Positions 4,532 to 37,274 of a stretch of 64,000 bases of DNA are shown piece by piece. Each line of letters starts with the position of its first letter. The stretch's first letter is position 1. The translations under genes and the position numbers were made by a program. Origin of the DNA: Dechloromonas sp. A34 (GTDB lineage: Bacteria > Pseudomonadota > Gammaproteobacteria > Burkholderiales > Rhodocyclaceae); the NCBI RefSeq assembly GCF_026261605.1, contig NZ_CP102486.1, forward strand, positions 2,976,001 through 3,040,000. Reading direction: 5' to 3'. The notes beneath the pieces are model-generated. The model saw nothing but the letters and a program-made list of their open reading frames with translations. It did no database searches and was not told the DNA's origin.

Positions 4532-7500
4532 ATGACCTTGAACCAACCATTGCCCCGCAGATGGCGCTTTCTAGCCGAATGGATGTTTCTCCTTGGTGCT
4601 TTGTTGCTGCTGGGTGGATTTCTCGGCTATTTGCAGGTCCAGGAGTACCGGCAGGGCGAGATACTGGAGCGCGAACGTCTGGCGAGTCAGGCTGCGGTCA
4701 TTGAAAAGAATGTAGTGCCGCAACTGCTTCTCGCCAATCGCGTCATTGAACAGATACTTGCCGACCTGCCCAGCTGGCAAGTCGAGAACGATGGCTTCAA
4801 GCGCGCCAATCGCCAGTTGCAGATCATCAACGACGCCATGATCGGGATCTACCCCATCCTGGTCATTCAGGCGGACGGGGCGGTAATCGCATCAAGCAAC
4901 GAGACGCTGGTCGGCATGAACTTCGCCCAGCGTGACTATTTCAAGTCGGCGATCAGGAGTCCCGACCCCGGCATCTTTCAAGTCAGCGCACCGTTCAAGA
5001 CCGCTCTCGGTTCCTGGGTGATCAGTCTGTCGCGAACGATTCGCCGGCCAGACGGCAAATTCGGTGGCATCGTCATTGTCAGCCTGGTGCCCGAGTATTT
5101 TTCCATCCTTCTTGATTCGGTGCGCTATGCGCCTGATATGCGAACGTCGATTGCCCATGGCGACGGCAAGCTGTTCCTGACCTTGCCGCACAACTCGGAA
5201 ACCAATGGAGCGGATCTGGCCAAGCCTGGTAGCTTCTTCATGCGCCACCGGGAGAGTGGCCTGCCCGCCAATGTGTTCAGCGGGACCACTTTTGTGACGG
5301 GGGATGAACGCATGATGGCCTTGCGCACGATCCACCTCCCGACGATGGACAAAGCGCTGGTGGTGGCGGCAAGCCGGGAGTTGGCCGTGCTCTTTGCGCC
5401 GTGGCGAAAAAATTTCCTGGTGCAAGGCATTTTGCTGGGCGTGATCGCGCTATTCGGCTCGCTAGCGCTGTTGCTCACACAAAACCGGCGGCGCGATCAG
5501 TCCCGGGAACGTCGCCTGGCCGAGCATCGGATCAGCGACCTGCTGGAGGAGCAGCGTTTGATTTTCGACAACGCCCACGTCGGCATCGTCATGCTGAACC
5601 ATCGCCAGGTGGTCAAATGCAATCGGCGTCAGGCGGAGATCTTCGGCTACGCTGGGCCGCAGGAGATCGAAGGCCGAAGCACGGAAATGTTTTATTGCTC
5701 GAACGAGCAATTCACTACAGTTGGTGAGCAGTTGTACCCGGAAATGGCGGAACACGGCTTCGCCCAGGTCGAGGCGGAGATGCGCCGAAAGGATGGAACG
5801 CGCATCTGGATCATGATGACCGGCCGCCCGTTGGACCCAACGGCGCCTCTCGACAGTTCGGTCTGGGTGTACACCGACATCACCGCTCGCCGGCTGGCTG
5901 AAACCGAGCAGCGGATCGCCGCCACGGCCTTTGAGGCGCAGGAAGGCATGATGATTACCGACCCCAGCGGTGTCATTCTGCGGGTTAATAGCGCCTTTAC
6001 CGAAATCACCGGCTATACGGCCGTCGAATGCATCGGGCAGACCCCGAACTTTCTGCACTCCGGTCAGCACGATGCCGAGTTCTATCGCACCATGTGGGAG
6101 TGCATCAATCGTACCGGGGGGTGGCGAGGCGAGGTCTGGGACCGGCGCAAGAGTGGCGAAATCTATCCCAAATGGCTGAACATCGTGGCGGTGAAGGGCG
6201 GGGATGGCATTGTCAGCCATTACATCGGTACGCACTTCGATCTCACCGAACGCAAGAAATCCGAAGAAAGGATCAATCAGCTCGCCTTTTTCGACCAGCT
6301 GACCGGCCTGCCCAACCGTACGCTTCTGCATGACCGCCTGAAGCAGACCATGACGGCAAGCGCCCGCAGCGGGAGTTACGGTGCCTTGCTCTTTATCGAC
6401 CTCGATAATTTCAAAACGCTCAACGACACGCTCGGTCATGACATGGGCGATCTGCTGCTCAAACAGGTTGCCCAGCGCTTGACGAGCTGTATCCGTGAAG
6501 GGGACACCGTGGCTCGCCTTGGCGGTGACGAGTTTGTGGTGGTGCTGACCGGCCTGAATTCGAGCGAGCTGGACGCCGTCGCCAATACCGAAATGGTTGC
6601 CGACAAAATTCTCGCTGTACTCAACCATATCTACCGGCTTGGCGATATCGCTCACGCGAGCACGGCAAGCATCGGGGTCACCGTGTTCAAGGGGCAACAG
6701 ACGACAGTCGACGATCTGATGAAACAGGCCGATCTCGCGATGTACAGATCCAAGGAATCGGGACGCAATGCCTCGCACTTCTTCGACCCCCAGATGGAGT
6801 CGTTTGCCAAGGAGCGCGCCGCGCTGGAGAGCGACTTGCGCCTGGCGATCGAGGAGAATCAGTTCGTCCTGCACTATCAGGCTCAGGTAAACGACGGCGG
6901 CCAGGTTACGGGTGCGGAAGTCCTGGTGCGCTGGCTGCATCCGGTGCGCAAGCTGGTCTCGCCGGCCGACTTCATTCCCCTGGCCGAAGAGACCGGGCTG
7001 ATCCTGCCCTTGGGCCACTGGGTTCTGCAGAGCGCTTGCCTGCAACTGGCCCTGTGGGCCAAGCGACCGGAGATGAGCCATCTCAACCTTGCCGTCAATG
7101 TCAGTGCCCGGCAGATACGCCAGGACGATTTTGTCAATGAAGTGCTTTCGCTTCTCGCGGAGACCGGCGCCGATCCGCAACGACTAAAGCTGGAGCTGAC
7201 CGAAAGCCTCCTGGTGCACAACGTCGAGGAGATTATCGAAAAAATGCTGGCCCTGAAGAACCACGGTGTCGGCTTCTCGCTCGATGACTTCGGTACCGGG
7301 TATTCATCGCTGTCCTACCTGAAACGGCTGCCCCTGAGTCAGTTGAAGATCGACCAGTCGTTTGTCCGCGATGTGCTCATCGACCCCAACGATGCGGCGA
7401 TTGCCAGAACGGTCGTGGCACTGGCCCAGAGCCTTGGCCTGGGGGTGATTGCCGAGGGCGTGGAAACGGCAGAGCAAAGGAATTTCCTGGCAGATGCTGG

Positions 7501-26020: not shown

Positions 26021-26971
26021 ATGCCAGCTTTTCCAAAGCCCAAGTTTTCCTTTGAATACGATCTAAACGCGGAGGTTGGCCGCCTGCGTAAGCACAAGAA
26101 AGTGCGCGCAATTCCCAACCGAGAGCAAGGCAAGCTTCTGGTGGGCACATGGAATATTGCAAATCTCGGCGCCCAGCAACGGCGGGATCAAGACCTTTCG
26201 ATTATCGCCGAGGTTGTCAGCTGGTTTGACATCACCGCGGTGCAGGAATGTCGGGAGAACTTTGGCGATTTGTTCGACATACAAAAAAAGCTTCCAAAGT
26301 CCTACCGCATCGTCATGTCTGATGCATCGGGGAATAATGAGCGGATGGCGTTTGTTTACGACAAACGGAAGTTATCCGTACTGGAGGAAATTGGCGAGAT
26401 TGCTTTCCCGCCTTCCAGCCTCAAGTCGATCAAACTTCCTGGAATTGATGCTCAGTTCAACGGATTTGACCGCACCCCGTATCTGGCTGCATTTGCAGTA
26501 GGTGATACGTCCATGATGTTCGTCAATGTCCATTTGTATTTCGGGAACGAGAAACCGGAATCCGTGGCTCGCCGGTCATTGGAGACATTCGCGGTAGCCA
26601 AATGGGCGGACCTGAGAAAAAGAAGTCTTTTTTCTTTCACGCGTGAGCTGGTCGCCCTGGGTGACTTCAACATGCCCAAATGCGAGCCTGGTGATCCGAT
26701 CTACAAAGCCCTTACCAAACTCGGCCTGGAACTCCCTGAGCATTCCACTCAAATAGCCTCGAGCATCAGCAGTAGCGCAAACTACGACCAGATTGCCTTT
26801 TTCCCGGAGACGACGCGCAATCACTTCACGGGAAAGAAGGGCGTGTTTGATTTCGATGCGGTGATCTTCCCTGAACTATGGCAGAACGGGACAAATATGA
26901 AGGACTTCAAAACCTACCTGCGTTATTTCATATCCGACCACCGACCGATGTGGGTGCAGTTGTCGATCTAA
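26021..26971 (+). CDS. Endonuclease/exonuclease/phosphatase family protein
   Basis: 316 residues, with an excellent ribosome site (GGAGGTGAAAC) before the ATG. Family motifs are clear: GTWNIANLG near residue 43, the catalytic-Glu motif VQECRENF, NVHLYFGN, LGDFNMP (metal-binding D and N) and the C-terminal SDHRPMW with the general-base His. These metal-dependent phosphoesterases cut DNA, RNA or phospholipids; the substrate cannot be told from sequence. No signal peptide is visible. The gene is more AT-rich than its neighbours, hinting at a foreign origin, and it ends 84 bases before the prophage attachment core. Confidence 0.88.
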   Translation: MPAFPKPKFSFEYDLNAEVGRLRKHKKVRAIPNREQGKLLVGTWNIANLGAQQRRDQDLSIIAEVVSWFDITAVQECRENFGDLFDIQKKLPKSYRIVMSDASGNNERMAFVYDKRKLSVLEEIGEIAFPPSSLKSIKLPGIDAQFNGFDRTPYLAAFAVGDTSMMFVNVHLYFGNEKPESVARRSLETFAVAKWADLRKRSLFSFTRELVALGDFNMPKCEPGDPIYKALTKLGLELPEHSTQIASSISSSANYDQIAFFPETTRNHFTGKKGVFDFDAVIFPELWQNGTNMKDFKTYLRYFISDHRPMWVQLSI

Positions 26972-27337
26972 AATCGGGTTGTGCGAGCGTTGAGGGGGAT
27001 TTGGTAAGGCAGCTTGCCGCGACGCGCTTTTTGGTCGCCGCCTTCGTTCAAATGAGTTCGCATAATTTGTATTCGCCGGGCCGTTATTGGTGGCCTGGCA
27101 GGGCAGGTTAGGGGAGGTTTCGACTACTGGCGCGGGCGTGTTTTTGGTGGTGAAGTTGGCGGCCAGGGCGGCGCCGGGATCAAGGCCGAGCAAAGCAGCG
27201 GCGGCCAGGGCGGCGGCCGGGGAAAGGTGGCCGCGTGCGGTGGCCTGGCTGAATGCCTGGCGGCTCATGCCGAGCGCGGCGGCGCAGTGGGCGGCGATGG
27301 GGTAGCGGCTGGCGAGTCGTTGCAGAAGGGTTTCCAT
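26876..27337 (-). CDS. Prophage helix-turn-helix protein, probable repressor, with a host-encoded C-terminus
   Basis: 153 residues in the integrated state, from the ATG at 27337, preceded by GGAAGGG. Residues about 10-60 look like a small DNA-binding domain (YPIAAHCAAALGMSRQAFSQ). The reading frame runs through the attachment core (encoding NTNYA near residue 93) into host DNA and picks up about 60 residues (beginning NSFERRRRPKS) that overlap the 3' end of the phosphoesterase gene. In the excised circle the same frame instead continues into 36562-36181, giving about 220 residues. It is divergent from the phage operon and faces an inverted repeat at 27421, as expected of a lysogeny regulator. 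Function is inferred; no characterised homologue is recognised. Confidence 0.7.
   Translation of the reverse strand: METLLQRLASRYPIAAHCAAALGMSRQAFSQATARGHLSPAAALAAAALLGLDPGAALAANFTTKNTPAPVVETSPNLPCQATNNGPANTNYANSFERRRRPKSASRQAALPNPPQRSHNPILDRQLHPHRSVVGYEITQVGFEVLHICPVLP
27055..27082 (+). other. Left attachment site (attL), hybrid dif
   Basis: Host XerC arm AGTTCGCATAA (27055-27065), centre TTTGTA (27066-27071), then phage sequence TTCGCCGGGCC in place of a XerD arm. The phage attP therefore has a good XerC arm and centre but a poor XerD arm. Confidence 0.88.
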
Positions 27338-27420
27338 GGTGCGGGCCCTTCCATTAACCGCGCCCGGCGGCGCGTTGTTGTGTCGCCTTCGTGGGATCGT
27401 TTTTCGATGCCTACTTATTC

Positions 27421-27441
27421 CCGTCAACGTGTGGTTGACGG
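27421..27441. promoter_or_regulatory. Inverted repeat, candidate operator between the divergent phage genes
   Basis: Perfect 8-bp arms CCGTCAAC and GTTGACGG separated by GTGTG, located between the helix-turn-helix gene and the first rightward gene. The right arm contains TTGACG, a -35-like hexamer, with AAAAAT 19 bases downstream, so repressor binding could block the early promoter. Confidence 0.5.
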
Positions 27442-27495
27442 AACCGGATTACATGCCGGAAAAATAAACTTCGCTTGTTCTGAGCGGGGTTAATC

Positions 27496-28035
27496 ATGGA
27501 AAGCGTTCAGATGATGGCCGGCGGCCATGTGGGGCACGTTCGCGCTGTTTTTTCGCGGCGTCGGCAGGGTTTCGCGGTGCCAGTCGATTTGCTGCGGGTG
27601 CATTTGCGGGGATGCAATCGGCTTTCGGCCGAGCGCCATAACGCGGCGGTGTATGAGCGACTAGCCGGGGATTTTGCCGGCTATCTGGTGACAGAAAGCG
27701 ATTGCGATTCGATCAGCGATGCCGAAACGTTTGAGGCCATTGACTTAGTTTTGGCCGATGGCAAGGCGACAACGGAAGAAACGGCGCAGCAAAGGGCGCG
27801 GGCGGCGTTGGGTATTGATGATTTGCCGGTGTGGCGTGATAGGGAGTCGGGGCGCGTGGTGTGCCTGGGTTCAATAAATTACGTTCGCGGGTTGCGGGAT
27901 GGGTTCGATTCTTTCGAGCGCGATTGCCTGGACGCGCCGCACCATTTGCCGGCGGGTAGCGTGACGCGCCATGTAGCAAACGGCGAGGCGATGGCATCGG
28001 ATCGGCGTTTTTTTCGGGATGGGTGGTTCAAATGA
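27496..28035 (+). CDS. First gene of the phage operon, unknown function
   Basis: 179 residues; GCGGGG precedes the ATG. Two tracts look ordered: an N-terminal basic part (HVRAVFSRRRQGFAVPVDLL) and a central acidic helical part (SDCDSISDAETFEAIDLVLA). No membrane helix or recognised motif. Its stop overlaps the endolysin start (ATGA). Being first behind the putative operator suggests an early or replication-accessory role, but nothing in the sequence proves it. Confidence 0.75.
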   Translation: MESVQMMAGGHVGHVRAVFSRRRQGFAVPVDLLRVHLRGCNRLSAERHNAAVYERLAGDFAGYLVTESDCDSISDAETFEAIDLVLADGKATTEETAQQRARAALGIDDLPVWRDRESGRVVCLGSINYVRGLRDGFDSFERDCLDAPHHLPAGSVTRHVANGEAMASDRRFFRDGWFK

Positions 28036-28373
28036 GCGCCCTTTCCGATCAACAGAAAAAGTTCTCTCTGATGCTGGCCGCCTTGATTGTTGAGGCCGAT
28101 CGCCAGGGGTTCGGGGTGACGATGGGCGAGGCTTACCGTTCGCCGGAAGAGGCGCGGCGCCTGGCGTTGGCGGGCCGGGGAATTGTCGAGTCGTTGCATT
28201 GCAAGCGCCTGGCCGTGGATTTGTGCATGTGGCGAGGTCAGCGCCTGCTGACGCTGACGGAAGAATATGAACCGCTCGGCGTGTGGTGGGAAAGCCAGGG
28301 CGGCGCCTGGGGTGGGCGCTTCAAGCGAGCCGATGGAAATCATTTTTCGCTCGCCTTTGGGGGGTTCCAATGA
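28032..28373 (+). CDS. M15-family peptidoglycan peptidase (endolysin)
   Basis: 113 residues. Zinc-ligand pattern of M15 D-Ala-D-Ala/L-Ala-D-Glu peptidases: SLHCKRLAVDL gives H56 and D63, and GNHFSL gives H104; the GEAYRSPEEARRL segment before it is also typical. The enzyme would cleave peptide stems in peptidoglycan for host lysis. No signal peptide is present, so export would need a holin; the small membrane proteins at 31018 and 31222 are candidates. Start and stop both overlap neighbours as ATGA. An endolysin placed before the replication gene rather than at the end is unusual for a lytic cassette. Confidence 0.85.
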   Translation: MSALSDQQKKFSLMLAALIVEADRQGFGVTMGEAYRSPEEARRLALAGRGIVESLHCKRLAVDLCMWRGQRLLTLTEEYEPLGVWWESQGGAWGGRFKRADGNHFSLAFGGFQ

Positions 28374-28630
28374 GCGCGGCGGCGGTGGTCCATCTGGAAG
28401 AGGCGCGGCGCATCCTGGGCGGTGAGCGAGATCCGTTGCGGCCGGTGTGGGATCAACAGGCAACCGACAAAGAGCGGCGCCTGTTGCTGGCGATGGCCGG
28501 CGCCACGATGGCCGAGGCGCAAGCCTGGTCGGGCCGGGCGTGGTGCGATTTGCGGCCGGAAGTGCGTAGCAATATTGCCGGCGGTTTGCGCCGGTTTAAG
28601 GCCTGGGCTGAGCGGGTGACGAGTGGATAA
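28370..28630 (+). CDS. Small phage protein upstream of the replication gene
   Basis: 86 residues starting at the ATG overlapping the endolysin stop. Mostly helical with Arg/Ala-rich stretches (KERRLLLAMAGATMAEAQAW, RSNIAGGLRRFKAWAERV). No recognised motif. It overlaps the GTG start of the replication gene by eight bases, so translation is coupled. Confidence 0.7.
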   Translation: MSAAAVVHLEEARRILGGERDPLRPVWDQQATDKERRLLLAMAGATMAEAQAWSGRAWCDLRPEVRSNIAGGLRRFKAWAERVTSG

Positions 28631-30389
28631 TTCGGCGCCTGGGGTGTTGCGGCGGGTTGAGCCTTGGTGCATTCCATACGCTGACGGAACGCGCTTGATT
28701 GATGCCCGCTTGCGCGGCGTCGAGGCCAGGCAGCAAGAAGAGGCCCGCAAATGGATGAAAGCCAGGCTCGCCGGGATGCCGGCGATTTGGGCAAAACAGA
28801 TTGCTGCCGAGCATGGCCGGCGGGGCGGGCTGGATAGCGGGCCGGCGAATGCCTGGCTACTCGATATGACCGGCAAGGCGGCCGGGCGCTTGCCGTTGGC
28901 GGCCAATGATTACGACATCCGCGAGGCGGCCGAAGAGGCGGCGCGGGTGGCGGTTCTGTTCGCCAAAGAGGAAATTCACGGCGGCGCCGGAAATGCGGCG
29001 GTGCGGGTGGTTCTCGAGGATCATTGCCGATCATGGGGGATTGAGCCGGCCGGGCAAGAAGGCATTCCGGGAATGTTGCGCATGATGGATTCGCGCTGGT
29101 ATTTGCGCCGGATGCGGAGGGCGCATAACCGGCGGGCCGAGGGCGCGGCGATTGTTGGCGGCGTGGTGCGGCGGGGTCTGTGGCCGTATGCCTCGCAGGA
29201 TGCGGTGCAGCGGCGCCAGGATCAACGCAAGCGCAACGCGGCGGCCATGGATAGGGCCGAGGCGGTGGCGGCCGATGGCGAGCGCGTGGCGATGGCTGAC
29301 GTTGTGGCCGGAAGCCTGGCGAACCCGGAAAACAAGCGGGCTGAACTGATGGTCAGAATTCGCGGCTGCGATGGTTACGCATCGTTGCAGGGGTGGGCGT
29401 GCGAGTTTTGGACGCTGACCACGCCAAGCCGGTTTCACGCGCAACGGATAACCGGCGCCTGTGCCGAGGCAAACCCGAATTACCGGGGCGCCACGCCACG
29501 CGAGGCGCAGCAATGGCTTTGCCGAATTTGGGCGCGGGCGCGGGCGGCCTGGAAGCGGCGCGGCCTGGTCGTGGCCGGCTTGCGAACGGCGGAACCGCAT
29601 CACGATGGATGCCCGCATTGGCATTTGATTGTCTATGGGGTGGCCGAGGATGTGCGTCTAGCCCGCCAGTTGTTGCGGGTCTATGCAATGCGCGATTGCG
29701 GCGGCGAGCCGGGCGCCTGGGGTCATCGGTTTAATTTCAAGATAGCCGAGGAAGGCACGGGCGCGGCGGCCTATGCGGCGGCCTATGTCTCGAAAAACAT
29801 TGACGGCGGCGGCATGGATGGCGAGCGCGATAGTGAAACCGGGCGCAAGGTTTCGGATGCGGTAAAGCGGGTTGATGCCTGGGCTTCGCATTGGGGCATT
29901 CGGCAATTTCAGTTCTTTGGAATGCCGGCCGTTGGGATTTGGCGCTGTTTGCGCCGGGTCGAAATGAACACGATGCCGCCAGGCTCAGATATATATCAAG
30001 CGTGGATGGCCGCCGATGATTCGGACTGGTGCAATTTTTGGATACACGCGGCGCGGGGCGGCCTGGCGCTGATTAAGGCCGGAATCGGCCGGCTGACCGA
30101 GTATGGCGACGAAGCGGCGGCAACGATTGCCGGGGTTGCCGAGGGCGCCCGGCGCCTGATGCTCAAAGCCCGTGATTGGGTTATTCATTGGGGCGGGATC
30201 GGCAAAAAAACGGACGGGGTTGCTTTTGATCTTCCTCGGTCCTGTGTCTCTAACTGTACGCGGGGCGATCTGGAAAAGCGGGCAGACCTAGACCAAGAGG
30301 AAAAGAGGCGGCGCGGTTTCGCGCTGGCTGAGCGTGAATTCGCCGGCATGGCGGCGGCAATTTTCGAGGATGCGCGGGCCGTGGCATAG
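28623..30389 (+). CDS. HUH rolling-circle replication initiator, P2 gpA-like
   Basis: 588 residues from a GTG start. The central domain carries superfamily I rolling-circle motifs: motif 1-like FWTLTTPSRFHA, motif 2 HDGCPHWHLIVYG with metal-binding H332 and H334, and motif 3 YAAAYVSKNIDGGG with two candidate nicking tyrosines Y384 and Y388 and K391. This matches the Phage_GPA family (P2 gene A, related to phiX174 A and PM2 P12). Such proteins nick one strand at the origin, stay covalently bound and drive rolling-circle replication in the cytoplasm with host helicase and polymerase. It ends the first phage operon; a new promoter and leader follow. Confidence 0.92.
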   Translation: MDNSAPGVLRRVEPWCIPYADGTRLIDARLRGVEARQQEEARKWMKARLAGMPAIWAKQIAAEHGRRGGLDSGPANAWLLDMTGKAAGRLPLAANDYDIREAAEEAARVAVLFAKEEIHGGAGNAAVRVVLEDHCRSWGIEPAGQEGIPGMLRMMDSRWYLRRMRRAHNRRAEGAAIVGGVVRRGLWPYASQDAVQRRQDQRKRNAAAMDRAEAVAADGERVAMADVVAGSLANPENKRAELMVRIRGCDGYASLQGWACEFWTLTTPSRFHAQRITGACAEANPNYRGATPREAQQWLCRIWARARAAWKRRGLVVAGLRTAEPHHDGCPHWHLIVYGVAEDVRLARQLLRVYAMRDCGGEPGAWGHRFNFKIAEEGTGAAAYAAAYVSKNIDGGGMDGERDSETGRKVSDAVKRVDAWASHWGIRQFQFFGMPAVGIWRCLRRVEMNTMPPGSDIYQAWMAADDSDWCNFWIHAARGGLALIKAGIGRLTEYGDEAAATIAGVAEGARRLMLKARDWVIHWGGIGKKTDGVAFDLPRSCVSNCTRGDLEKRADLDQEEKRRRGFALAEREFAGMAAAIFEDARAVA

Positions 30390-30405
30390 CGGCGATAAAT
30401 AAAAC

Positions 30406-30434
30406 TTGCAACGTCGATAAATTTTATTTATGGT
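30406..30434 (+). promoter_or_regulatory. Candidate promoter of the phage structural operon
   Basis: TTGCAA at 30406 and TATGGT at 30429 with a 17-base spacer, in the only AT-rich gap between the replication gene and the next gene. Downstream lie a hairpin (GATAGC-GTGTT-GCTATC, 30446-30462) and a ribosome-site hairpin (TTTTCC/GGAAAA). Confidence 0.45.
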
Positions 30435-30491
30435 GCGGCCAGGTTGATAGCGTGTTGCTATCGGCTAACCATTTTCCAAAGGGGAAAAGCT

Positions 30492-31013
30492 ATGCGTAAA
30501 TCTCTCCGCGCTCTGGCCGCCATCGTTGCCGCTGCCAATCCGGGTGTTCTGTCCTTCCATCTGGCCGCCATTACTGGCGACAAGTCGCTCAAGTTCAACG
30601 GCCGCGTGGTCGTCGATGGAACTACCTACGAGGTCGCTGCCGACAATGGCAAGATCAAGAAGTATTCCGATGCTGACGGCTTCACGAAAGACCTTGCCGC
30701 CTACTTCGCCACGCCTTCGGGCACCTACGAAATCAGCGTTGAAACCGGCCTGATTCTGGTGTCTCCGCTGCCGGCTGACCTAAAGAAAAACGCCGCTGCC
30801 AAGGTTGTTTCCCTGGGTGCCAAGAAAACCGCGCAGCAAGCCATTGTTACCGGCCTGGATGCCGATTTGGCTTTGATGGCCGGTTGGGATGTCGGCAACG
30901 CGTTGCAGGTCGCCCGCTTCAACGAGGTGACGGCGCAGAAGGTGTCTGTTGTCGCTGACATCGCCGCAATTGACGCGCTGATCGTCACTTACACCGCCAT
31001 TGCCAATAGCTAA
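30492..31013 (+). CDS. Candidate major virion protein of the dif prophage
   Basis: 173 residues from the ATG at 30492, which follows AAAGGGGAAAAG, the strongest ribosome site in the prophage. The product has a short N-terminal Ala-rich helix, a beta-rich middle (KFNGRVVVDGTTYEVAADNG, YEISVETGLILVSPL) and an Ala/Val-rich C-terminal half. No homology is recognised. Codon use differs from all neighbours: Ala is mostly GCC/GCT and Leu mostly CTG, while flanking phage genes prefer GCG and TTG. High-expression codons, a private promoter and first position in the structural operon make it the best candidate for the most abundant virion protein. Confidence 0.7.
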   Translation: MRKSLRALAAIVAAANPGVLSFHLAAITGDKSLKFNGRVVVDGTTYEVAADNGKIKKYSDADGFTKDLAAYFATPSGTYEISVETGLILVSPLPADLKKNAAAKVVSLGAKKTAQQAIVTGLDADLALMAGWDVGNALQVARFNEVTAQKVSVVADIAAIDALIVTYTAIANS

Positions 31014-31017
31014 AGCG

Positions 31018-31218
31018 GTGGAACCCGATCTGCTATTGCAGGTCGGGCTTTCTGTGTTGGCAGCGGGTGCCGTCTATGGCGGCATTCGCCAGGATTTGAA
31101 ATACCTGCACGAAAAGACCGACGCGGCGCGAAAGAGCGCCAGGCGGGCGCATAGGCGATTAGATGCGCTGATTACCAAAGGCCGGGCGGGCGAGCGGGCC
31201 GGCGATCTAGGGGAGTGA
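31018..31218 (+). CDS. Small single-span membrane protein
   Basis: 66 residues from a GTG at 31018 (a TTG at 31000 overlaps the previous stop). One N-terminal membrane helix (LLLQVGLSVLAAGAVYGGI) is followed by a basic helical tail (KTDAARKSARRAHRRLDALI). The arrangement resembles phage lysis accessory or minor membrane proteins; assignment is uncertain. Confidence 0.6.
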   Translation: MEPDLLLQVGLSVLAAGAVYGGIRQDLKYLHEKTDAARKSARRAHRRLDALITKGRAGERAGDLGE

Positions 31219-31221
31219 AAA

Positions 31222-31404
31222 GTGGGAATCACCAAAGACAACAAGGTATTGCAGCGTTTGCGCGAACCTTCAACGATGGCCGGGTTGGGCGCTCTGGCGC
31301 TTCTGTTCGGTCTGCCGCCGGATACCATCAACGTTGTTTTGCAGGCGGTGGGGGCGATCCTGGGAGTCCTGGCTGTGGTTTTGCCGGAAAAGGGCGGTAA
31401 CTGA
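31222..31404 (+). CDS. Small hydrophobic protein, holin-like
   Basis: 60 residues from a GTG with AGGGGAG seven bases upstream. REPSTMAGLGALALLFG and INVVLQAVGAILGVLAVVL form two hydrophobic segments before a short PEKGGN tail, a pattern familiar from small phage membrane proteins often called holin-like. Its stop overlaps the next start (TGATG). It could also be a virion membrane protein. Confidence 0.65.
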   Translation: MGITKDNKVLQRLREPSTMAGLGALALLFGLPPDTINVVLQAVGAILGVLAVVLPEKGGN

Positions 31405-32225
31405 TGTTCGCCACTTACGCATTCAACGGAAATGCGTCCATGGTTCAGGTGGTGGCCGATGTTGTGGCGTTGATCTGTGGCGGTTCGGTGGCTTCGCTGT
31501 CGGCTTCGTGCAACAAGGCGCTAACAACGGTGGCCGGTGCGGCAACGCCATATTCCGCGCCATCGGCGCAGAGTTTTGGCGTTGTGCAAGCAACGTGCAT
31601 GGATGGCGTCAGCAAGAAAATATTCCGCTTGGTGGCAACGTCAAACGTTGCGACGTTGCAGGCTTACGATACTTGGAACGGCGCAACCAATACCGGGACC
31701 AATGCGACAACGGCGCGCAATTGCATGTATTTGGATGCGAATCCGGGGACGCTTTGGATTGTGGCAACGGATGAAATTTTGGCCATTGGCATGGCAAATA
31801 CCTATTGCGGAATAGGGTTTGAAATCAAGCGGGAAGCGCCTTTCATGGTCGGAACGTCGCGGCCGTGTTGGGGCGTGGTGACAAATTCAGCCTATGCGCC
31901 GGAAATGCCGAGGGCCAAAAGTATGACGGCGGCCGGCGATCAGGTAATTGTTCCGGTCTATCTGACCAGCCCGCTTAATGGTCTGACGTTCGGATTCCCA
32001 AGGGGGGCCGACGATTTGAATTACAACCAAATGCTGCCGTGTTTCGCAATGCTGCAATACGGTGGCTATATCTACGCGGGCGCGATCCGTGGGGCGATGT
32101 GCGGGGCAGAGGCAATAGGCGCGGTTGGCGACAATTACACGGATGACATCGGCAGAAATTACCTGCTAATTAAGACCGGGGCGCCAACGCCATCGCATAA
32201 AACTATTGCGGTGTTGCGCGGATGA
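31404..32225 (+). CDS. Phage structural/spike-like protein A1
   Basis: 273 residues. The N-terminal ~70 residues follow the pattern Q-V-x-A-D-[LV]-VAL-I-x-G-x-x-V-x-x-LSASCNKA that I associate with putative structural or receptor-binding proteins in several phages. The remainder is Gly/Thr/Cys-rich and beta-like (AYDTWNGATNTGTNATTARN, LNGLTFGFPRGADD). It is homologous to the protein at 32843 over the N-terminal region and part of the body. It overlaps the next start by ATGA. Virion function is inferred from family resemblance and position. Confidence 0.7.
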   Translation: MFATYAFNGNASMVQVVADVVALICGGSVASLSASCNKALTTVAGAATPYSAPSAQSFGVVQATCMDGVSKKIFRLVATSNVATLQAYDTWNGATNTGTNATTARNCMYLDANPGTLWIVATDEILAIGMANTYCGIGFEIKREAPFMVGTSRPCWGVVTNSAYAPEMPRAKSMTAAGDQVIVPVYLTSPLNGLTFGFPRGADDLNYNQMLPCFAMLQYGGYIYAGAIRGAMCGAEAIGAVGDNYTDDIGRNYLLIKTGAPTPSHKTIAVLRG

Positions 32226-32839
32226 CTGAGCGAACGGGGCGCCTTGTCGGTGGCGATCTGTTCATGGTGCCGGGTGGTTTTGTTGATGCCGCCCAAAATT
32301 TCGCCGGGCATATCGAGGCGATAGTTCTGGAAATGGTGCCGGGCGGCTATGCGCGAACGTCGCAGAGTTTTTCGGGTGTCGGGGTGGTGCAGGCCGGGGC
32401 AGGGGAGGCGCCAGGCGGCGGCGGTAGCGTCGATTTGCCGGCGGCTTGGCAGTCGGTGGAATTGCCGGCCGGCTATATCTGCCCTCTGCTCGGCCAGGTC
32501 GCTTTGGCGCGAGGCGAGGCGGTGGCCTATGACGCGGCCAGCAAGCGGCTGACCATCGGCGGCCGGGTGTTGATCGGCACGGCCGGCAAGGTGTTTGCCT
32601 TCGCCAGCAAGCCGGCGGCCGATATGTGGGAGTCGATCAATCGGGCGCGGGTGGCGCGGGAATTGGAATTGCTGGCCGGGCTGACGGCGGGCGCGGTGGT
32701 CGCCTTCAAGGCCGGCAAGGTGGAAGGGATGCAGGCGAGGGCGGCGAGGATAACCGCCAATGCGGCAAAAACGGCCGATCCGCAAAAGCGGGCGGCGCTT
32801 ACGGCCGAGGCCGGATTTTATGCAACGAAGTGGAGCTAA
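32222..32839 (+). CDS. Structural-module partner protein B1
   Basis: 205 residues. A central conserved block reads VDLPAAWQSVELPAGYI and RGEAVAYDAASKRLTIGGRV with LIGTAGK, followed by a helical C-terminus rich in Ala and Arg. It is paralogous to the protein at 33644, which carries IDLPPVWSAFALPAGYI and RVTIGGRLLIGPAG. Function is unknown. Strict pairing with A-type genes suggests that A and B products work together, for example as spike and connector. Confidence 0.7.
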   Translation: MTERTGRLVGGDLFMVPGGFVDAAQNFAGHIEAIVLEMVPGGYARTSQSFSGVGVVQAGAGEAPGGGGSVDLPAAWQSVELPAGYICPLLGQVALARGEAVAYDAASKRLTIGGRVLIGTAGKVFAFASKPAADMWESINRARVARELELLAGLTAGAVVAFKAGKVEGMQARAARITANAAKTADPQKRAALTAEAGFYATKWS

Positions 32840-32842
32840 AAA

Positions 32843-33640
32843 ATGTACGGTGTTTATTCGTGGAACGCGGGCGCGGTGGCCGCACAGGTGCAGGCCGATC
32901 TAGTGGCGTTGATTGCCGGCGCGGCCGTGGGCGATCTGTCGGCAAGCTGCAATAAGGCGGCGAGTTCGCGGGCCGGTGGCGCCTCGGGTTGGTCGGTGGT
33001 CGATGCCGGCTATGGTGTGGTTTCGATGCCGGGCCAGGCCGGCGGGCCGGGGGCTTTCGGGCGCGTCACGGTGTCGGCAGCGCCGCGCATTCAGTTAGCG
33101 GCGGTTGATGCCTGGAATATGGGAACCCATGCCGCCGGGTTTCAGACTACTGCGATTGATTGCTCGCAATCGCTATCGGTCGCGGGTTCGGTGACGGTCC
33201 TGGCGAGCGCGGCGGGTTTGTTGCTGGCGGCGTCGGATTGGGGCTTTTGGGCCTTCGTCGGCGAGGTCAAGCGGGATGGTCAATCGCTGGTCGGTGACGC
33301 GCTGGCGCCGGGTTCGATCATCGTCAATGTCAATGGTCAATGCTACATGCCGAGGCTTAAAAGCCCTTCGGCCGTGGGCGATCTGTCCGGGCCTTCGGTG
33401 ACGTTCGCCTCGTCGTTCGGCACGCTGTCTGCGTCGGCTTCGCGCAACAGGGCCGAGTCGCTCTATATCCCGATGGTGCCGGCCGTGGTGGCTTACTCGT
33501 CGGTGCCGGTGGGCGAAGTGGCGGGCCTGATGATTGCCGGCGGCTATGGTCAGTCGGGAGATTTCATGCTCGATAGCTCGGGCGGTGATTTCCTGATTGC
33601 CAAGTTTTCAAACACGCTTTGCGCGGTGCCGAGGGTCTAA
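32843..33640 (+). CDS. Phage structural/spike-like protein A2 (paralogue of A1)
   Basis: 265 residues starting MYGVYSWNAGAVAAQVQADL, then VALIAGAAVGDLSASCNKAA, closely matching A1 at the N-terminus but diverging through the body, where Ser/Gly/Val-rich beta-like sequence dominates (SPSAVGDLSGPSVTFASSFG). Three bases separate it from B1. The relation to A1 points to a tandem duplication of an A-B pair followed by divergence of the distal part, as expected for surface proteins. Confidence 0.7.
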   Translation: MYGVYSWNAGAVAAQVQADLVALIAGAAVGDLSASCNKAASSRAGGASGWSVVDAGYGVVSMPGQAGGPGAFGRVTVSAAPRIQLAAVDAWNMGTHAAGFQTTAIDCSQSLSVAGSVTVLASAAGLLLAASDWGFWAFVGEVKRDGQSLVGDALAPGSIIVNVNGQCYMPRLKSPSAVGDLSGPSVTFASSFGTLSASASRNRAESLYIPMVPAVVAYSSVPVGEVAGLMIAGGYGQSGDFMLDSSGGDFLIAKFSNTLCAVPRV

Positions 33641-33643
33641 GCG

Positions 33644-34366
33644 GTGGCCCAACTCAATACCGGCGGGCGAGTCGATATTGGCGATGTTTTTGGCGCGGCG
33701 TTGCGGCTCAAGGTCGGGGCGCGGCCGAGCCTGGCCGCCGTGGTCGTTGGGGCACGCCTGGCGATTGCCTTTCGTCTGCTCGGCTTGCCGTTGGGATTGC
33801 AAAGGGCAGGGCGGCTAGAAATTTCAACGCGCTTGCGGGCCTGGTCGAGTGGATCGGGCCAGGATGCCGGGCGGCGCTTGTCGATTACAAAGCGGCTCGG
33901 CCGGTTTCAGGTGGGGGCCATTGCCGGCGCGGGCGGGCCTGGGGTGTCGGCCGGTGAAACGTTCATAGACTTGCCGCCGGTGTGGTCGGCCTTCGCCTTG
34001 CCGGCGGGGTACATCGGCCGCGAAGTGGCGGGACTGGCGATCATGCGCGGCGAGCCGGTGGAATTCGCGGCCGGGCGGGTGACGATTGGCGGCCGGTTGT
34101 TGATCGGGCCGGCGGGCGCCGACGAATTTTTCGACAATTCGGCAGCAGTGGCGCGGTGGGTTAGTTTGCGGGTTGGTGATGCCGCGTTGTGGTTGGGTGC
34201 GGTTGGTTTGCCGGATGGGGCCGAGCGCGATGCGTTGCTATCCAAATATCGGAATTCCGGCGCGGTGGCGGTTCGCAAATACGCCAGGCAGTTGCCGAAA
34301 GGCGGCGAGGCGGCGCGGCGCGTGGCCCTGGTGAGCGATCTTGATTGGGTGGGGTTGAGGGTATGA
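33644..34366 (+). CDS. Structural-module partner protein B2 (paralogue of B1)
   Basis: 240 residues from a GTG three bases after the A2 stop. An N-terminal extension absent from B1 (GRVDIGDVFGAALRLKVGAR) precedes the shared block (LPAGYIGREVAGLAIMRGEP, VTIGGRLLIG) and a helical C-terminus. The stop overlaps the start of the HU-like gene (ATGA). Confidence 0.7.
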   Translation: MAQLNTGGRVDIGDVFGAALRLKVGARPSLAAVVVGARLAIAFRLLGLPLGLQRAGRLEISTRLRAWSSGSGQDAGRRLSITKRLGRFQVGAIAGAGGPGVSAGETFIDLPPVWSAFALPAGYIGREVAGLAIMRGEPVEFAAGRVTIGGRLLIGPAGADEFFDNSAAVARWVSLRVGDAALWLGAVGLPDGAERDALLSKYRNSGAVAVRKYARQLPKGGEAARRVALVSDLDWVGLRV

Positions 34367-34698
34367 ACCGGGCAGAATTGGCGGCGGTGGTGGCGCAGGC
34401 CACGGGGGAGAATGCAACCCATGTCGAGGATATTTTGCGCTATGCGGAAAGCGCCATAGTCAAGGCGGTGACGCAGGGCGAATGGGTGGAGCTTCGATAC
34501 TTCGGGAAGTTCGTCACAAAGAAGCAAGCGGCGCGGCGAATCAAGATGCCGAAAACCGGAATATGGCACCAAATACCAGCGACAACGCGGGTTAGTTTCG
34601 AGGCGTCGAAGTATTTCAAGGCGTCGGTGGCGGGGAGGAAACCGGGCGGGCAATACATTGAAGCCAGGGCGGCCCGGCCATCGGTCATTGAGCGGTAA
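34363..34698 (+). CDS. HU/IHF-family DNA-binding protein encoded by the prophage
   Basis: 111 residues from the ATG at 34363, which overlaps the B2 stop. HU-family features: MNRAELAAVVAQATG, the helix EDILRYAESAIVKAV, GEWVELRYFGKFVTKKQAAR and the arm motif RIKMPKTGIWHQIPATTRV. A ~20-residue C-terminal extension (GGQYIEARAARPSVIER) exceeds standard HU length (about 90). It could compact phage DNA for packaging, assist origin opening, or act at dif/attP. It closes a run of overlapping genes from 31404. Confidence 0.85.
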   Translation: MNRAELAAVVAQATGENATHVEDILRYAESAIVKAVTQGEWVELRYFGKFVTKKQAARRIKMPKTGIWHQIPATTRVSFEASKYFKASVAGRKPGGQYIEARAARPSVIER

Positions 34699-34710
34699 AA
34701 AATGGCTGTT

Positions 34711-34798
34711 GTCTTACGGATAAGAAAAAAGACGCAAAATAATGTTTTCTTCCCGGAAGCGCCGAATGTTTCTAATTTTTGAGTCTTATGAATAAGAC
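34711..34798. promoter_or_regulatory. Two palindromic GTCTTA-type boxes, candidate operators
   Basis: GTCTTACGGATAAGA at 34711-34725 and GTCTTATGAATAAGAC at 34783-34798 share the pattern GTCTTAyGrATAAGA and stand 72 bases apart in the AT-rich gap before the 34826 gene. Repeated palindromes in a short intergenic region suggest regulator binding. Confidence 0.5.
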
Positions 34799-34825
34799 CT
34801 ATTTTTGACCGAGAGGGGGCCGTAA

Positions 34826-35704
34826 ATGCCGCTGCCGCTGTTGTTGATTCCGCTTTGGGAAGTGTTGGTCGCGATCCTGTCATGGGTTGCGGCAAACAAG
34901 GTGCGGGCGCTGACCATCGCCGCGTTGACGTCGCCGATGGCTGACGCGCTGACAGATAACGAGCTATCGGAACTGATGCGACGTTTGCGAAACGGGTTCG
35001 CGGCAACCATTAATTCCCTGATTGATACGTCGTTAAACGGCGATGATTTCGAGTCGGCGCAACGCTTCAAAATCGGGCTTGGGCGAGAGATTGGCGCCCG
35101 TGCAGGCATCGTGTTGCGTGATGTGACAGACCGAGAAACGTTGCGCGAGGATTTGGAAAGTCATGCGCTTTTGCTGTTCGAGCAGAAAACAGGGATGCGC
35201 CTTACATCACTGCGCGACAAAGAGGCGATCAAGCAGGATTTTGCCAGGCTGGCGGCGTCTTATGTGGCCGAGAATGCCGGTATTCCGTTGTCAAACATCC
35301 TCGATCCCGAGGCGGTCAAGGCCGATGTCATGGAATGGGCGCAAGATCAGGCCATGATAAGAATTAGCGAAAACGTTGATGCTGCGTTGCAGGCCAGGCT
35401 CTCGAGCGGGGTTTCGTTGCTCCAACAAATGCGCGATTCAACGGGTAAAAATGTGAGTCCAAAGGCGCTTTTGGTTGGGATCAATGATGCGATTGTTTCG
35501 CGCTATATAGTGCGGGTTGATGTCTTGGACGCTATGAGCAAGCCGGATCGGCGCCGGATGTCAAACCGCATTGCACAAAGAAAATTCAGGGATCGGGCGA
35601 ACCCGAGTTCGCCGCTGTACGATGGGCGAACGGGTGGGAAGGCGGTCTATGTGGCGAAGGGGTGGCAAGTGCAGCAAACGCCGCCGGCCGAGCCGCCAGG
35701 GTGA
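34826..35704 (+). CDS. Phage protein with N-terminal membrane segment, unknown function
   Basis: 292 residues; GAGAGGGGG precedes the ATG. Residues 2-22 are hydrophobic (LLLIPLWEVLVAILSWVAA); the rest is soluble, charged and helical (RETLREDLESHALLLFEQKT, KEAIKQDFARLAASYVAENA), with a Pro-rich end. A terminator follows 18 bases after the stop. It has its own upstream regulatory boxes. A minor virion protein, pilot protein or membrane-anchored assembly factor are all possible; no family is recognised. Confidence 0.7.
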   Translation: MPLPLLLIPLWEVLVAILSWVAANKVRALTIAALTSPMADALTDNELSELMRRLRNGFAATINSLIDTSLNGDDFESAQRFKIGLGREIGARAGIVLRDVTDRETLREDLESHALLLFEQKTGMRLTSLRDKEAIKQDFARLAASYVAENAGIPLSNILDPEAVKADVMEWAQDQAMIRISENVDAALQARLSSGVSLLQQMRDSTGKNVSPKALLVGINDAIVSRYIVRVDVLDAMSKPDRRRMSNRIAQRKFRDRANPSSPLYDGRTGGKAVYVAKGWQVQQTPPAEPPG

Positions 35705-35721
35705 AAGCGAACGATATTGAG

Positions 35722-35750
35722 ATAGCCGGCAATTGCCGGCTATTCTTTTT
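35722..35750 (+). terminator. Terminator inside the prophage
   Basis: A 22-base perfect palindrome built on ATAGCCGGCAA and its complement, followed by TTCTTTTT, directly downstream of the 34826 gene. Confidence 0.88.
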
Positions 35751-35788
35751 GGGCAATTGGTGCAGAATATGCGCTCATGATTTTTTGA

Positions 35789-36067
35789 TTGGGGCGGGCC
35801 GTGGGGTATATCGGGTTTTTCATCGGGGCGGCGCTGGCCGTGGGCGCCTTCAACTGGCGCGGGCGCGGCTTGGCCTGGCGCCTGGTGTGCGGGTTGGGTT
35901 GGGTCGTGTTGCAGGCTCTAGCGTTCGTTGGAAGCCTGATGGTGTCAGGTGAATGGTTATGGTCGGTCGCCTGGGCGATGTTGGCCGGATTCCTGGCGGC
36001 GGCTGTTCTGTGCGTTGTCGAGTGGTTGGCGATGGGCGCGAAAAAACTGGTAAGCCGGGGTAAATAG
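35789..36067 (+). CDS. Small polytopic membrane protein of the prophage
   Basis: About 92 residues from a TTG at 35789, or 88 from the GTG at 35801. Three hydrophobic stretches: GYIGFFIGAALAVGAF, LVCGLGWVVLQALAFVGSL and MLAGFLAAAVLCVVEWLAM, then a basic tail. It lies between two terminators, so it needs its own promoter or readthrough. No family is recognised; superinfection exclusion or a membrane role in the virion are guesses. Confidence 0.55.
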   Translation: MGRAVGYIGFFIGAALAVGAFNWRGRGLAWRLVCGLGWVVLQALAFVGSLMVSGEWLWSVAWAMLAGFLAAAVLCVVEWLAMGAKKLVSRGK

Positions 36068-36095
36068 TTGGGTGCCGGTCTGTGGCAATAAATGG

Positions 36096-36125
36096 GCCCG
36101 TGATTTAGATCGCGGGCTTTTTTTT
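36096..36125 (+). terminator. Terminator after the last rightward phage gene
   Basis: GCCCGTGAT, loop TTAG, ATCGCGGGC, then eight T. Confidence 0.9.
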
Positions 36126-36148
36126 GCCCGTCGTTTCGATGGTCAATA

Positions 36149-36169
36149 GATTGCGCTTATGGCGCAATC
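36149..36169. repeat. Perfect 8-bp inverted repeat near the prophage right end
   Basis: GATTGCGC, loop TTATG, GCGCAATC, with no T tract. It could end leftward transcription of the split regulator gene or mark a replication or assembly signal. Confidence 0.4.
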
Positions 36170-36180
36170 AGAATAATCAT

Positions 36181-36562
36181 TCAGGCGGCGAGGCGTTGTC
36201 TATTGCGTGCCGGGCGTTGCGTGGCTGATGATGCGCCCTTGTTCGTCGGTGGTCGTGGTTGGGGGTTGGCGAAGGCTTGATATTCCGTAATGGCGTCAGG
36301 CACAAAGCGAACCCAAGCCGGATCGATGGGCGGGCAATTGGCGATACTTTCGGTGAAGGTGCCGGCCTTCTTGGCGGCGAAAATCTTCTCCGGAACTCGC
36401 CAGCGAGAAACGTAGTAAGCGAATCGTGGTGAGTCGGCGCGGATGCCAGCCACGGCTAAAACCCAGCGTATCAGATCGATTGCGGTGTTTTGATCTTTGG
36501 AGGTTATGAAATGAACATTTGGCAAGGGCGCGGATTGTCCGCTTTTTTTTGTTCTCTGCAAC
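36181..36562 (-). CDS. Detached C-terminal part of the split helix-turn-helix gene
   Basis: 126 codons from the attachment core to the stop. The sequence includes NVHFITSKDQNTAIDLIRWV, RFAYYVSRWRVPEKIFAAKK, then PPIDPAWVRFVPDAITEY, which looks like a genuine folded domain of unknown family. In the integrated state the frame is also open back into the host to an ATG at 36630, but that start has no ribosome site and adds 17 host-encoded residues. In the circular phage the frame joins exactly to the helix-turn-helix gene at 27337 through the shared NTNYA codons. It is therefore best read as the C-terminal domain of the phage regulator, orphaned in the lysogen, not as an independent gene. Confidence 0.65.
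36530..36550 (+). terminator. Terminator-like hairpin just inside the right attachment site
   Basis: GCGGA-TTG-TCCGC followed by eight T, twelve bases before attR. On the plus strand it would stop phage transcription from entering the host. It lies antisense inside the split regulator's reading frame, where it appears as an A8 tract. Confidence 0.6.
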
Positions 36563-36588
36563 TTCGCATAATTTGTATTATGTAAAAT
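36561..36588 (+). other. Right attachment site (attR), complete dif-like XerCD site
   Basis: XerC arm ACTTCGCATAA, centre TTTGTA, XerD arm TTATGTAAAAT. The first two bases are from the phage; the host version reconstructed from attL has AG there. The site is 28 bp like known dif sites, so it marks the chromosome terminus and should still work for dimer resolution in the lysogen. Confidence 0.9.
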
Positions 36589-36662
36589 TGTAAATTTGGA
36601 AACGCCAATCGGTATTGCCCGAGCAAACATGGGATAGCAATTGGTTAGCGATCAGCCCTGCT

Positions 36663-37274
36663 CTAAATGCTCGGCGCTGGAATCGGCGGATCGAAGTGAT
36701 AGCCCTGGAACAAGTCGAACTGCAGATCCATGCAGCGTTGTGCGCACTGGCTCGAGTCGACTTTCTCGGCCAGGAGTTGCAGCGGAAACTTGCGTAGCGC
36801 CCTGACCAGTTCCTCGAGGTTTTCGTCGTCGAGAGACAGAAGATCCACCTTCACTATGTCGGCGAGGTCGAACAATGGTGTGTACTCGTCCTGGCAATCG
36901 CAGACGTCGTCGAGGGCGAGATGGAAACCGCGGCGCTTCAGTTCGGCACAGCGGCAAATGACGCGCTCGTCGACCTCCACTGTTTCGAGAAGCTCGAGTA
37001 CGACACGCCAGCAAGGCAAGGACTCGATCCGCGAGGAAAACAACATCTCGGCATCGACATTGATGAAACCCGGCAGGCCTCTCAGTACTTGCTGACCATG
37101 CCCGCCGTTGCCGTAGACGAGGTTAATGACTTCATCGGTGGCCAATGCATCGTCGCTTATCTGCGCAGCGATGGCATTGCCACGCCGGTGGAGCAATTCG
37201 AAAGCGGCCACTCGGCATTGCCGGTTACGGATGGGCTGCGGCGAAACGCGGATATCACAACTCTTCATGGACAT
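36663..37274 (-). CDS. Stand-alone divergent EAL-domain protein
   Basis: 203 residues from the ATG at 37274, which has GGAGAAA upstream. The fold resembles the EAL half of YuxH/CdgJ-type EAL-HDOD proteins: FELLHRRG (ELL in place of EAL), NVDAEMLFSS, LALDDV and VKVDLLSL, AEKVDSSQ, then FQGYHFDPP. Several catalytic residues of active phosphodiesterases are replaced, so it is probably a c-di-GMP or protein binder. The HDOD domain normally following is absent; the protein stops shortly after the EAL part, 74 bases from dif. It is transcribed toward the prophage and could drive the orphan frame at the right end. Confidence 0.75.
   Translation of the reverse strand: MSMKSCDIRVSPQPIRNRQCRVAAFELLHRRGNAIAAQISDDALATDEVINLVYGNGGHGQQVLRGLPGFINVDAEMLFSSRIESLPCWRVVLELLETVEVDERVICRCAELKRRGFHLALDDVCDCQDEYTPLFDLADIVKVDLLSLDDENLEELVRALRKFPLQLLAEKVDSSQCAQRCMDLQFDLFQGYHFDPPIPAPSI

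Follow-up and report, generated by a model that had tools for sequence, protein, structure and literature searches.

A dif-type attachment site within the regulator frame of a small integrated element in Dechloromonas sp. A34

Attachment sites within regulator genes

In mycobacteriophage BPs and in phages of clusters G, I, N and P, immunity is integration-dependent (PMC4557955, PMC9262239), an arrangement also described for the Bifidobacterium prophages Bb423phi2/689b-1 (PMC6109161). In the parts of these reports cited here, the repressor gene contains attP and is cut short by integration, the viral form has an ssrA-like end (--LAA or similar) and a divergent promoter region carries an operator. 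We describe a comparable arrangement in a 64,000-nucleotide stretch of Dechloromonas sp. A34 (positions 2976001-3040000 of a single-contig, 4.76-Mb genome; hereafter the window, in which all coordinates are given unless stated otherwise). Here a 9506-bp integrated element, likely a phage, has its attachment site inside the open reading frame (ORF) of a helix-turn-helix (HTH) regulator, the HTH being assigned from the fold of a homologue. By sequence, an ssrA-like C-terminal tag belongs to the virally encoded form only, and a divergent control region holds a predicted operator. Unlike BPs, the site is dif in place of a tRNA attB, and Pfam revealed no phage tyrosine integrase, co-transcribed with the repressor or otherwise, among the 14 rightward ORFs treated as genes. 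A further difference is that the part lost comprises 127 residues with a conserved domain and that the lysogen form gains a host-coded tail.

Xer-dependent precedents exist in Xanthomonas. XacF1 carries attP in its regulator ORF12 and integrates by Xer/dif (PMC4076744, PMC5666396); deletion of the 5' part of the regulator gene with attP retained rendered the prophage unstable, as given in the cited portion of PMC5666396. In XacF1, Cf and Cf1c, as here, host Xer/dif integration splits a reverse-strand regulator gene holding attP, although XacF1 and Cf1c are described as inoviruses with a Zot-like protein. The Cf1c core (5197-5211 of record L086) falls inside the regulator gene (5120-5620); about 25 residues follow it, the protein ends RKRTGQ, and no C-terminal part shared with the window's element was seen by eye. 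Phage phiRSS0, compared by its description only, likewise uses XerCD; its dif attP is located at the 3' end of ORF13, which may be an immunity gene (PMC3816273). Jorvik (Vinavirales, PMC10589892), as far as its description extends here, is a small circular phage with a dif-type att near an HTH gene, a putative M15 endolysin and no predicted integrase; unlike the present element, it has a non-coding region between attP and the HTH gene, together with packaging ATPase and capsid genes.

Since a regulator-borne attP has already been described in Xer/dif phages (XacF1, phiRSS0) and the Cf1c protein ends RKRTGQ, it is the combination of such a site with an ssrA-like tag, not each half, that looks new. 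In the open-licence literature, 'integration-dependent immunity' was not found together with XerC, dif and phage, nor 'integration-dependent' with XerC, attP, repressor and filamentous. The terms ssrA-like and XerCD did not occur together among the matches listed, and Dechloromonas, prophage and dif site co-occurred only in a dif survey.

The regulator frame at the dif core

The features that define the split are listed below.
27057 to 36562, no strand: dif-integrated element, from the left core up to the base preceding the right core, bounded by exact 17-bp repeats; several of its genes are common to four other dif-integrated relatives.
27057 to 27073, no strand: left att core, consisting of the XerC arm and centre, with element sequence in place of the XerD arm.
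36561 to 36588, no strand: right end, a complete 28-bp dif with its core at 36563-36579.
26876 to 27337, reverse strand: lysogen regulator of 153 residues, comprising the HTH part (27337-27058) and 60 host-coded residues after the att peptide; weak HTH PHROG matches and the Cro/cI-like fold of a homologue.
36181 to 36579, reverse strand: C-terminal remainder of the free-phage regulator, leading from the att peptide through a linker and a conserved helical domain to the tail, within the open frame 36181-36630.
36181 to 36195, reverse strand: C-terminal RLAA and stop, an ssrA-like predicted degradation tag.
27338 to 27495, no strand: divergent control region separating the regulator from the rightward operon.
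27421 to 27441, no strand: predicted operator, an 8-bp inverted repeat with a 5-bp spacer.
36530 to 36550, forward strand: terminator-like hairpin and T run, opposite the KKSG codons beside the core (four such found in 36000-36800, 1.0 expected).

Both cores read TTCGCATAATTTGTATT; when the two end regions were compared, no exact repeat was longer, and the next one measured 13 bp. The right-end dif is the only match at 0-2 mismatches in the host genome. Across the genus the same scan gave a match in 14 of 36 genomes, this one included, and none in 22, with zero matches for reversed-pattern controls; the published Dechloromonas aromatica dif, as reproduced in its source, is close to that of the window (PMC2731167). 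The att core agrees with chromosomal dif. No recombinase domain was found by Pfam among the rightward ORFs, and the host encodes both XerD, which scored above cut-off, and another Xer-like protein, so that recombination is likely performed by host XerCD.

A preliminary description of this locus had placed the core inside an HTH frame that would be continuous in the circular phage, and the geometry bears this out. On the reverse strand from ATG 27337, NTNYA occurs at residue 89 and is followed by the 60 residues that the DNA-binding part gains from the host, the last of which run antisense to the 3' end of a neighbouring host gene. The right-hand reverse frame, offset by 9506, crosses its core in the same phase, also as NTNYA, with 127 residues following. 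Joined in the predicted circle, the two would give a protein of 220 residues (88 + 5 + 127). In a structure model the att peptide falls in a predicted disordered linker, and the HTH part is similar to Cro-type proteins, which have 60-70 residues.

To place this geometry among natural proteins, the C-terminal piece alone served as query in a protein search, which returned 47 proteins, its own included (E<=1e-3), all read as proteins. Classified by pattern, 14 combine an HTH N-terminal part, att peptide and C-terminal domain (C-domain); ten, the window's own among them, read a complete dif ahead of the C-domain, as at a lysogen junction. A further eight carry the att peptide behind a short N-terminal part of 27-56 residues in which no HTH was recognised, and 15 show no att peptide. 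The att peptide reads NTNYA or something close to it, LYYVK/LHYVK (dif in the other orientation) or IQIMR/MQIMR (another phase). Among the short forms, P0023, P0026, P0027, P0034 and P0036-P0038 have 27-41 residues in place of the HTH with the att core still in frame; several short-form relatives begin KLSPR, KLTPR or RLAPR near the start, and those with IQIMR/MQIMR read the core in another phase. A KK motif recurs in relatives at the KKSG position, which overlaps the hairpin by the att core.

The following dif lysogens could be assessed besides the window.
G060: Dechloromonas denitrificans ATCC BAA-841, with N- and C-terminal parts on different contigs, and so possibly two elements.
G061: single-contig chromosome of a metagenome-assembled genome, with the ends 43 kb apart.
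G062: 11.6-kb element of the LYYVK type.
G063: degenerate C-side core, with another element seemingly between that core and dif.

Both frames were in phase in all five lysogens (5/5), each of which encodes a C-terminally altered prophage form. Excluded from this count were L089/G004 (contig beginning inside the C-domain), L085 (C-domain not fused) and L092 (C-domain DNA the same as in G063). A chance frame match, which the preliminary description had considered less likely, is ruled out by the 14 natural fused relatives together with the five in-phase lysogens; the sequences show an uninterrupted gene in natural relatives and a divided one in lysogens. That account had also held that the C-terminal part lacks a start of its own. 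This is borne out in G060 and G061, where the orphan frames begin only three codons upstream of NYA and contain no start codon before the att peptide, but not in the present lysogen, in which host DNA supplies a possible ATG at 36630 (149 residues). One distant relative goes against the preliminary description, which had named separate genes in related phages as refuting it: in L085, a C-domain piece (45% identical over 66 residues) forms a separate ORF downstream of dif.

Some of these loci are composite. In G061 (C1:440879-484350, L132-L134) the sequence at the N-side core shares 91% identity over 56 bp with that of the C-side core plus flank, and tRNA-like genes (by eye) follow; because its bounding cores lie 43 kb apart, the locus may hold a large nested insert. 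Two elements are apparently stacked at one dif in G063 (C33:28883-44186, L136), with cores at 28883, 37460 (degenerate) and 44172. L085 (9370-15226) is a different small element beside dif with the stand-alone C-domain relative; by eye it also has a lytic transglycosylase-like gene, with an HTH-like gene on the far side of dif.

Few sequenced genomes carry the C-domain (5 loci in a scan of species genomes; 3 of 60 relatives, this genome included). It is the most conserved part of the protein, with invariant D-S-P-R-F and S-R-W blocks (alignment A1), and matches phrog_10187, of unknown function, in 14 of 32 members. A PDB sequence search with A1 returned nothing, and Foldseek with P0002 gave no match at E<=0.001 in PDB or BFVD, the C-domain being barely covered by the PDB fold comparison. 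The N-terminal piece in its lysogen form, used as a protein query, scored 7996 candidates and returned none, not even itself, for which alanine-rich words are the probable cause.

A variable basic tail follows the C-domain and ends RLAA in the window's element. The 47 matches and the G060 piece were reduced from 48 to 45 by dropping three short-tailed sequences and to 33 by dropping 12 redundant ones (70% alike). Tails ending [AV][AV] numbered 22/33 against 21/269 host ORFs (Fisher 6e-14, descent ignored), and those ending AA 16/33 against 18/269 (Fisher 6e-9, descent ignored), the host set being mechanically called ORFs of >=150 residues from 400 kb of host DNA. The remaining 11 tails lack an [AV][AV] end. 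Of the 30 C-terminal positions, only a serine at -16 varies less than the final one. LVA, AAV and ASV are ssrA tag variants, and MuA ends in a basic ClpX motif. The host tmRNA, found above cut-off by RF01850 and not by RF00023, encodes the tag ANDEQFAIAA, which the -RLAA end resembles, and ClpX is present. None of the five lysogen forms has an ssrA-like end (VLP, PSF, LRR, ERS and SMP). This contrast with the -RLAA end of the free form, absent from the preliminary description, strengthens the analogy with BPs.

Within the control region the palindrome at 27421-27441 reads CCGTCAAC-N5-GTTGACGG. The motif GTCAAN7TTGAC occurs once in the window (0.02 expected) and not at all in 400 kb of host DNA. 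G060 and G062 have it in their corresponding region, which makes three of five elements, and G061 and G063 lack it there (two of the four other elements have it).

A predicted integration-dependent switch and its alternatives

We favour BPs-like integration-dependent immunity that would be driven by host XerCD. Since attP lies within the regulator frame, integration replaces the C-domain and the predicted tag, and we think it rather probable that host residues thereby convert an unstable protein into a stable lysogen repressor. The circular form would make the 220-residue protein, which ClpXP would remove through its -LAA end, allowing the operon to run. Integration by XerCD would exchange the C-domain and predicted tag for a random host tail; the HTH part so extended would persist, bind the palindrome and keep the operon off. 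On excision the gene would become whole again and the switch would return to its initial state. We infer the recombination by XerCD, the circle's product, the ClpXP step and repression at the palindrome. The preliminary description had likewise proposed BPs-type geometry through XerCD and dif; attP in the regulator and the dif site stand, the use of XerCD is likely as set out above, and the XacF1 precedent had gone unnamed.

Three observations weigh against this account: the C-domain is larger and more conserved than a mere tag needs, eight of the 47 relatives have short N-terminal parts in which an HTH was not recognised, and L085 encodes the C-domain separately. Given the first of these, the C-domain probably adds a further function in the free state.

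The same facts underlie the strongest alternative, in which the C-domain is an effector (for example in replication, anti-repression or Xer recombination) that needs the regulator's promoter and start, so that integration silences it and the HTH part matters less. Its invariant blocks, the variable N-terminal parts, the startless orphans of G060 and G061 and the separate ORF near dif in L085 all suit this idea. Conversely, the HTH stays fused in frame in 14 of 47 relatives, its gene faces a palindromic control region, AA-type ends fit an unstable protein and the orphan of this lysogen has a possible host start. We regard the effector explanation as unlikely, yet grant it some weight on account of the large conserved C-domain, the eight short N-terminal parts and L085; it is compatible with, and not exclusive of, the favoured tag-removal model. 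A joint version can be put forward tentatively, namely that integrase-less, dif-hijacking phages of Azonexus-like bacteria may have independently evolved a protein-domain switch in which recombination by host XerCD would by itself set the lysogenic state: a single crossover would both remove the repressor's degradation tag and disconnect a conserved free-state effector domain, with excision resetting both.

Much less plausible is the reverse polarity, whereby the full-length protein would act as repressor while the element is free (episomal) and would lose its activity on integration, the HTH part being unable to work without the C-domain. Many repressors require a C-terminal oligomerisation domain, and the C-domain is strongly conserved. 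Against this, the HTH part is similar to the Cro-type proteins of 60-70 residues mentioned above, and the full-length form has a tag-like end. The XacF1 prophage, moreover, was destabilised by removing the 5' part, as reported in the portion cited of PMC5666396. A frozen accident, with the dif-like site placed by chance in a linker that tolerates it and the split playing no part in regulation, is very improbable: the predicted disordered linker would accept many peptides, but the site keeps its place there even as it is read differently (NTNYA, LYYVK/LHYVK, IQIMR/MQIMR; two orientations and two phases), and comparable arrangements are reported for BPs and XacF1.

If the favoured model is correct, integration-dependent immunity, known from integrase-carrying actinobacterial phages, can arise without a phage integrase, with the host's chromosome-dimer resolution enzymes as the switch. 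Lysogeny would be tied to Xer activity and cell division, and the retention of an att site inside the regulator by some Xer-hijacking elements would be explained. Free and lysogen proteins that occur as pairs in nature provide a ready test set.

Gene content of the element

Three further genes could be assigned.
28623 to 30389, forward strand: GPA-type rolling-circle replication protein (Rep; PF05840 8.9e-64, phrog_91 2.1e-124).
28023 to 28373, forward strand: M15 peptidase, likely endolysin (PF13539 above cut-off).
34345 to 34698, forward strand: HU-like DNA-binding protein (PF00216 7.7e-19).

No capsid or packaging gene was recognised in the element, and its status as a phage is for this reason only likely. 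Profiles covered 14/14 rightward ORFs with Pfam, 8/14 with PHROGs and 9/14 with NCBIfam. At this coverage a Zot/pI-type ATPase had no match, and a filamentous-phage identity was set aside; coat protein genes of that kind gave no match in the element either, although such proteins are short and diverse. A Corticovirus/Jorvik-like identity was considered because M15, dif and GPA Rep are present, but no ATPase or capsid was recognised.

INPHARED contained no relative of the element's DNA, of P0002 or of a 273-residue protein. Rep alone matched 324 of its phage records, every one at <60% identity; from the viral collection 80 Rep loci were kept, and L002 was the sole one compared further. PADLOC gave nothing for three proteins. 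Fold comparison of a conserved 189-residue protein found long-helix look-alikes only in PDB and no match at E<=0.001 in BFVD. Two tandem paralogue pairs occupy the middle of the element at 31404-34366 (273 and 265 residues, 31% identical; 205 and 240 residues, 44% over 71 residues), and the 273-residue protein gave, apart from itself, a single match of 74% identity, which lies on a contig of 10,034 bp.

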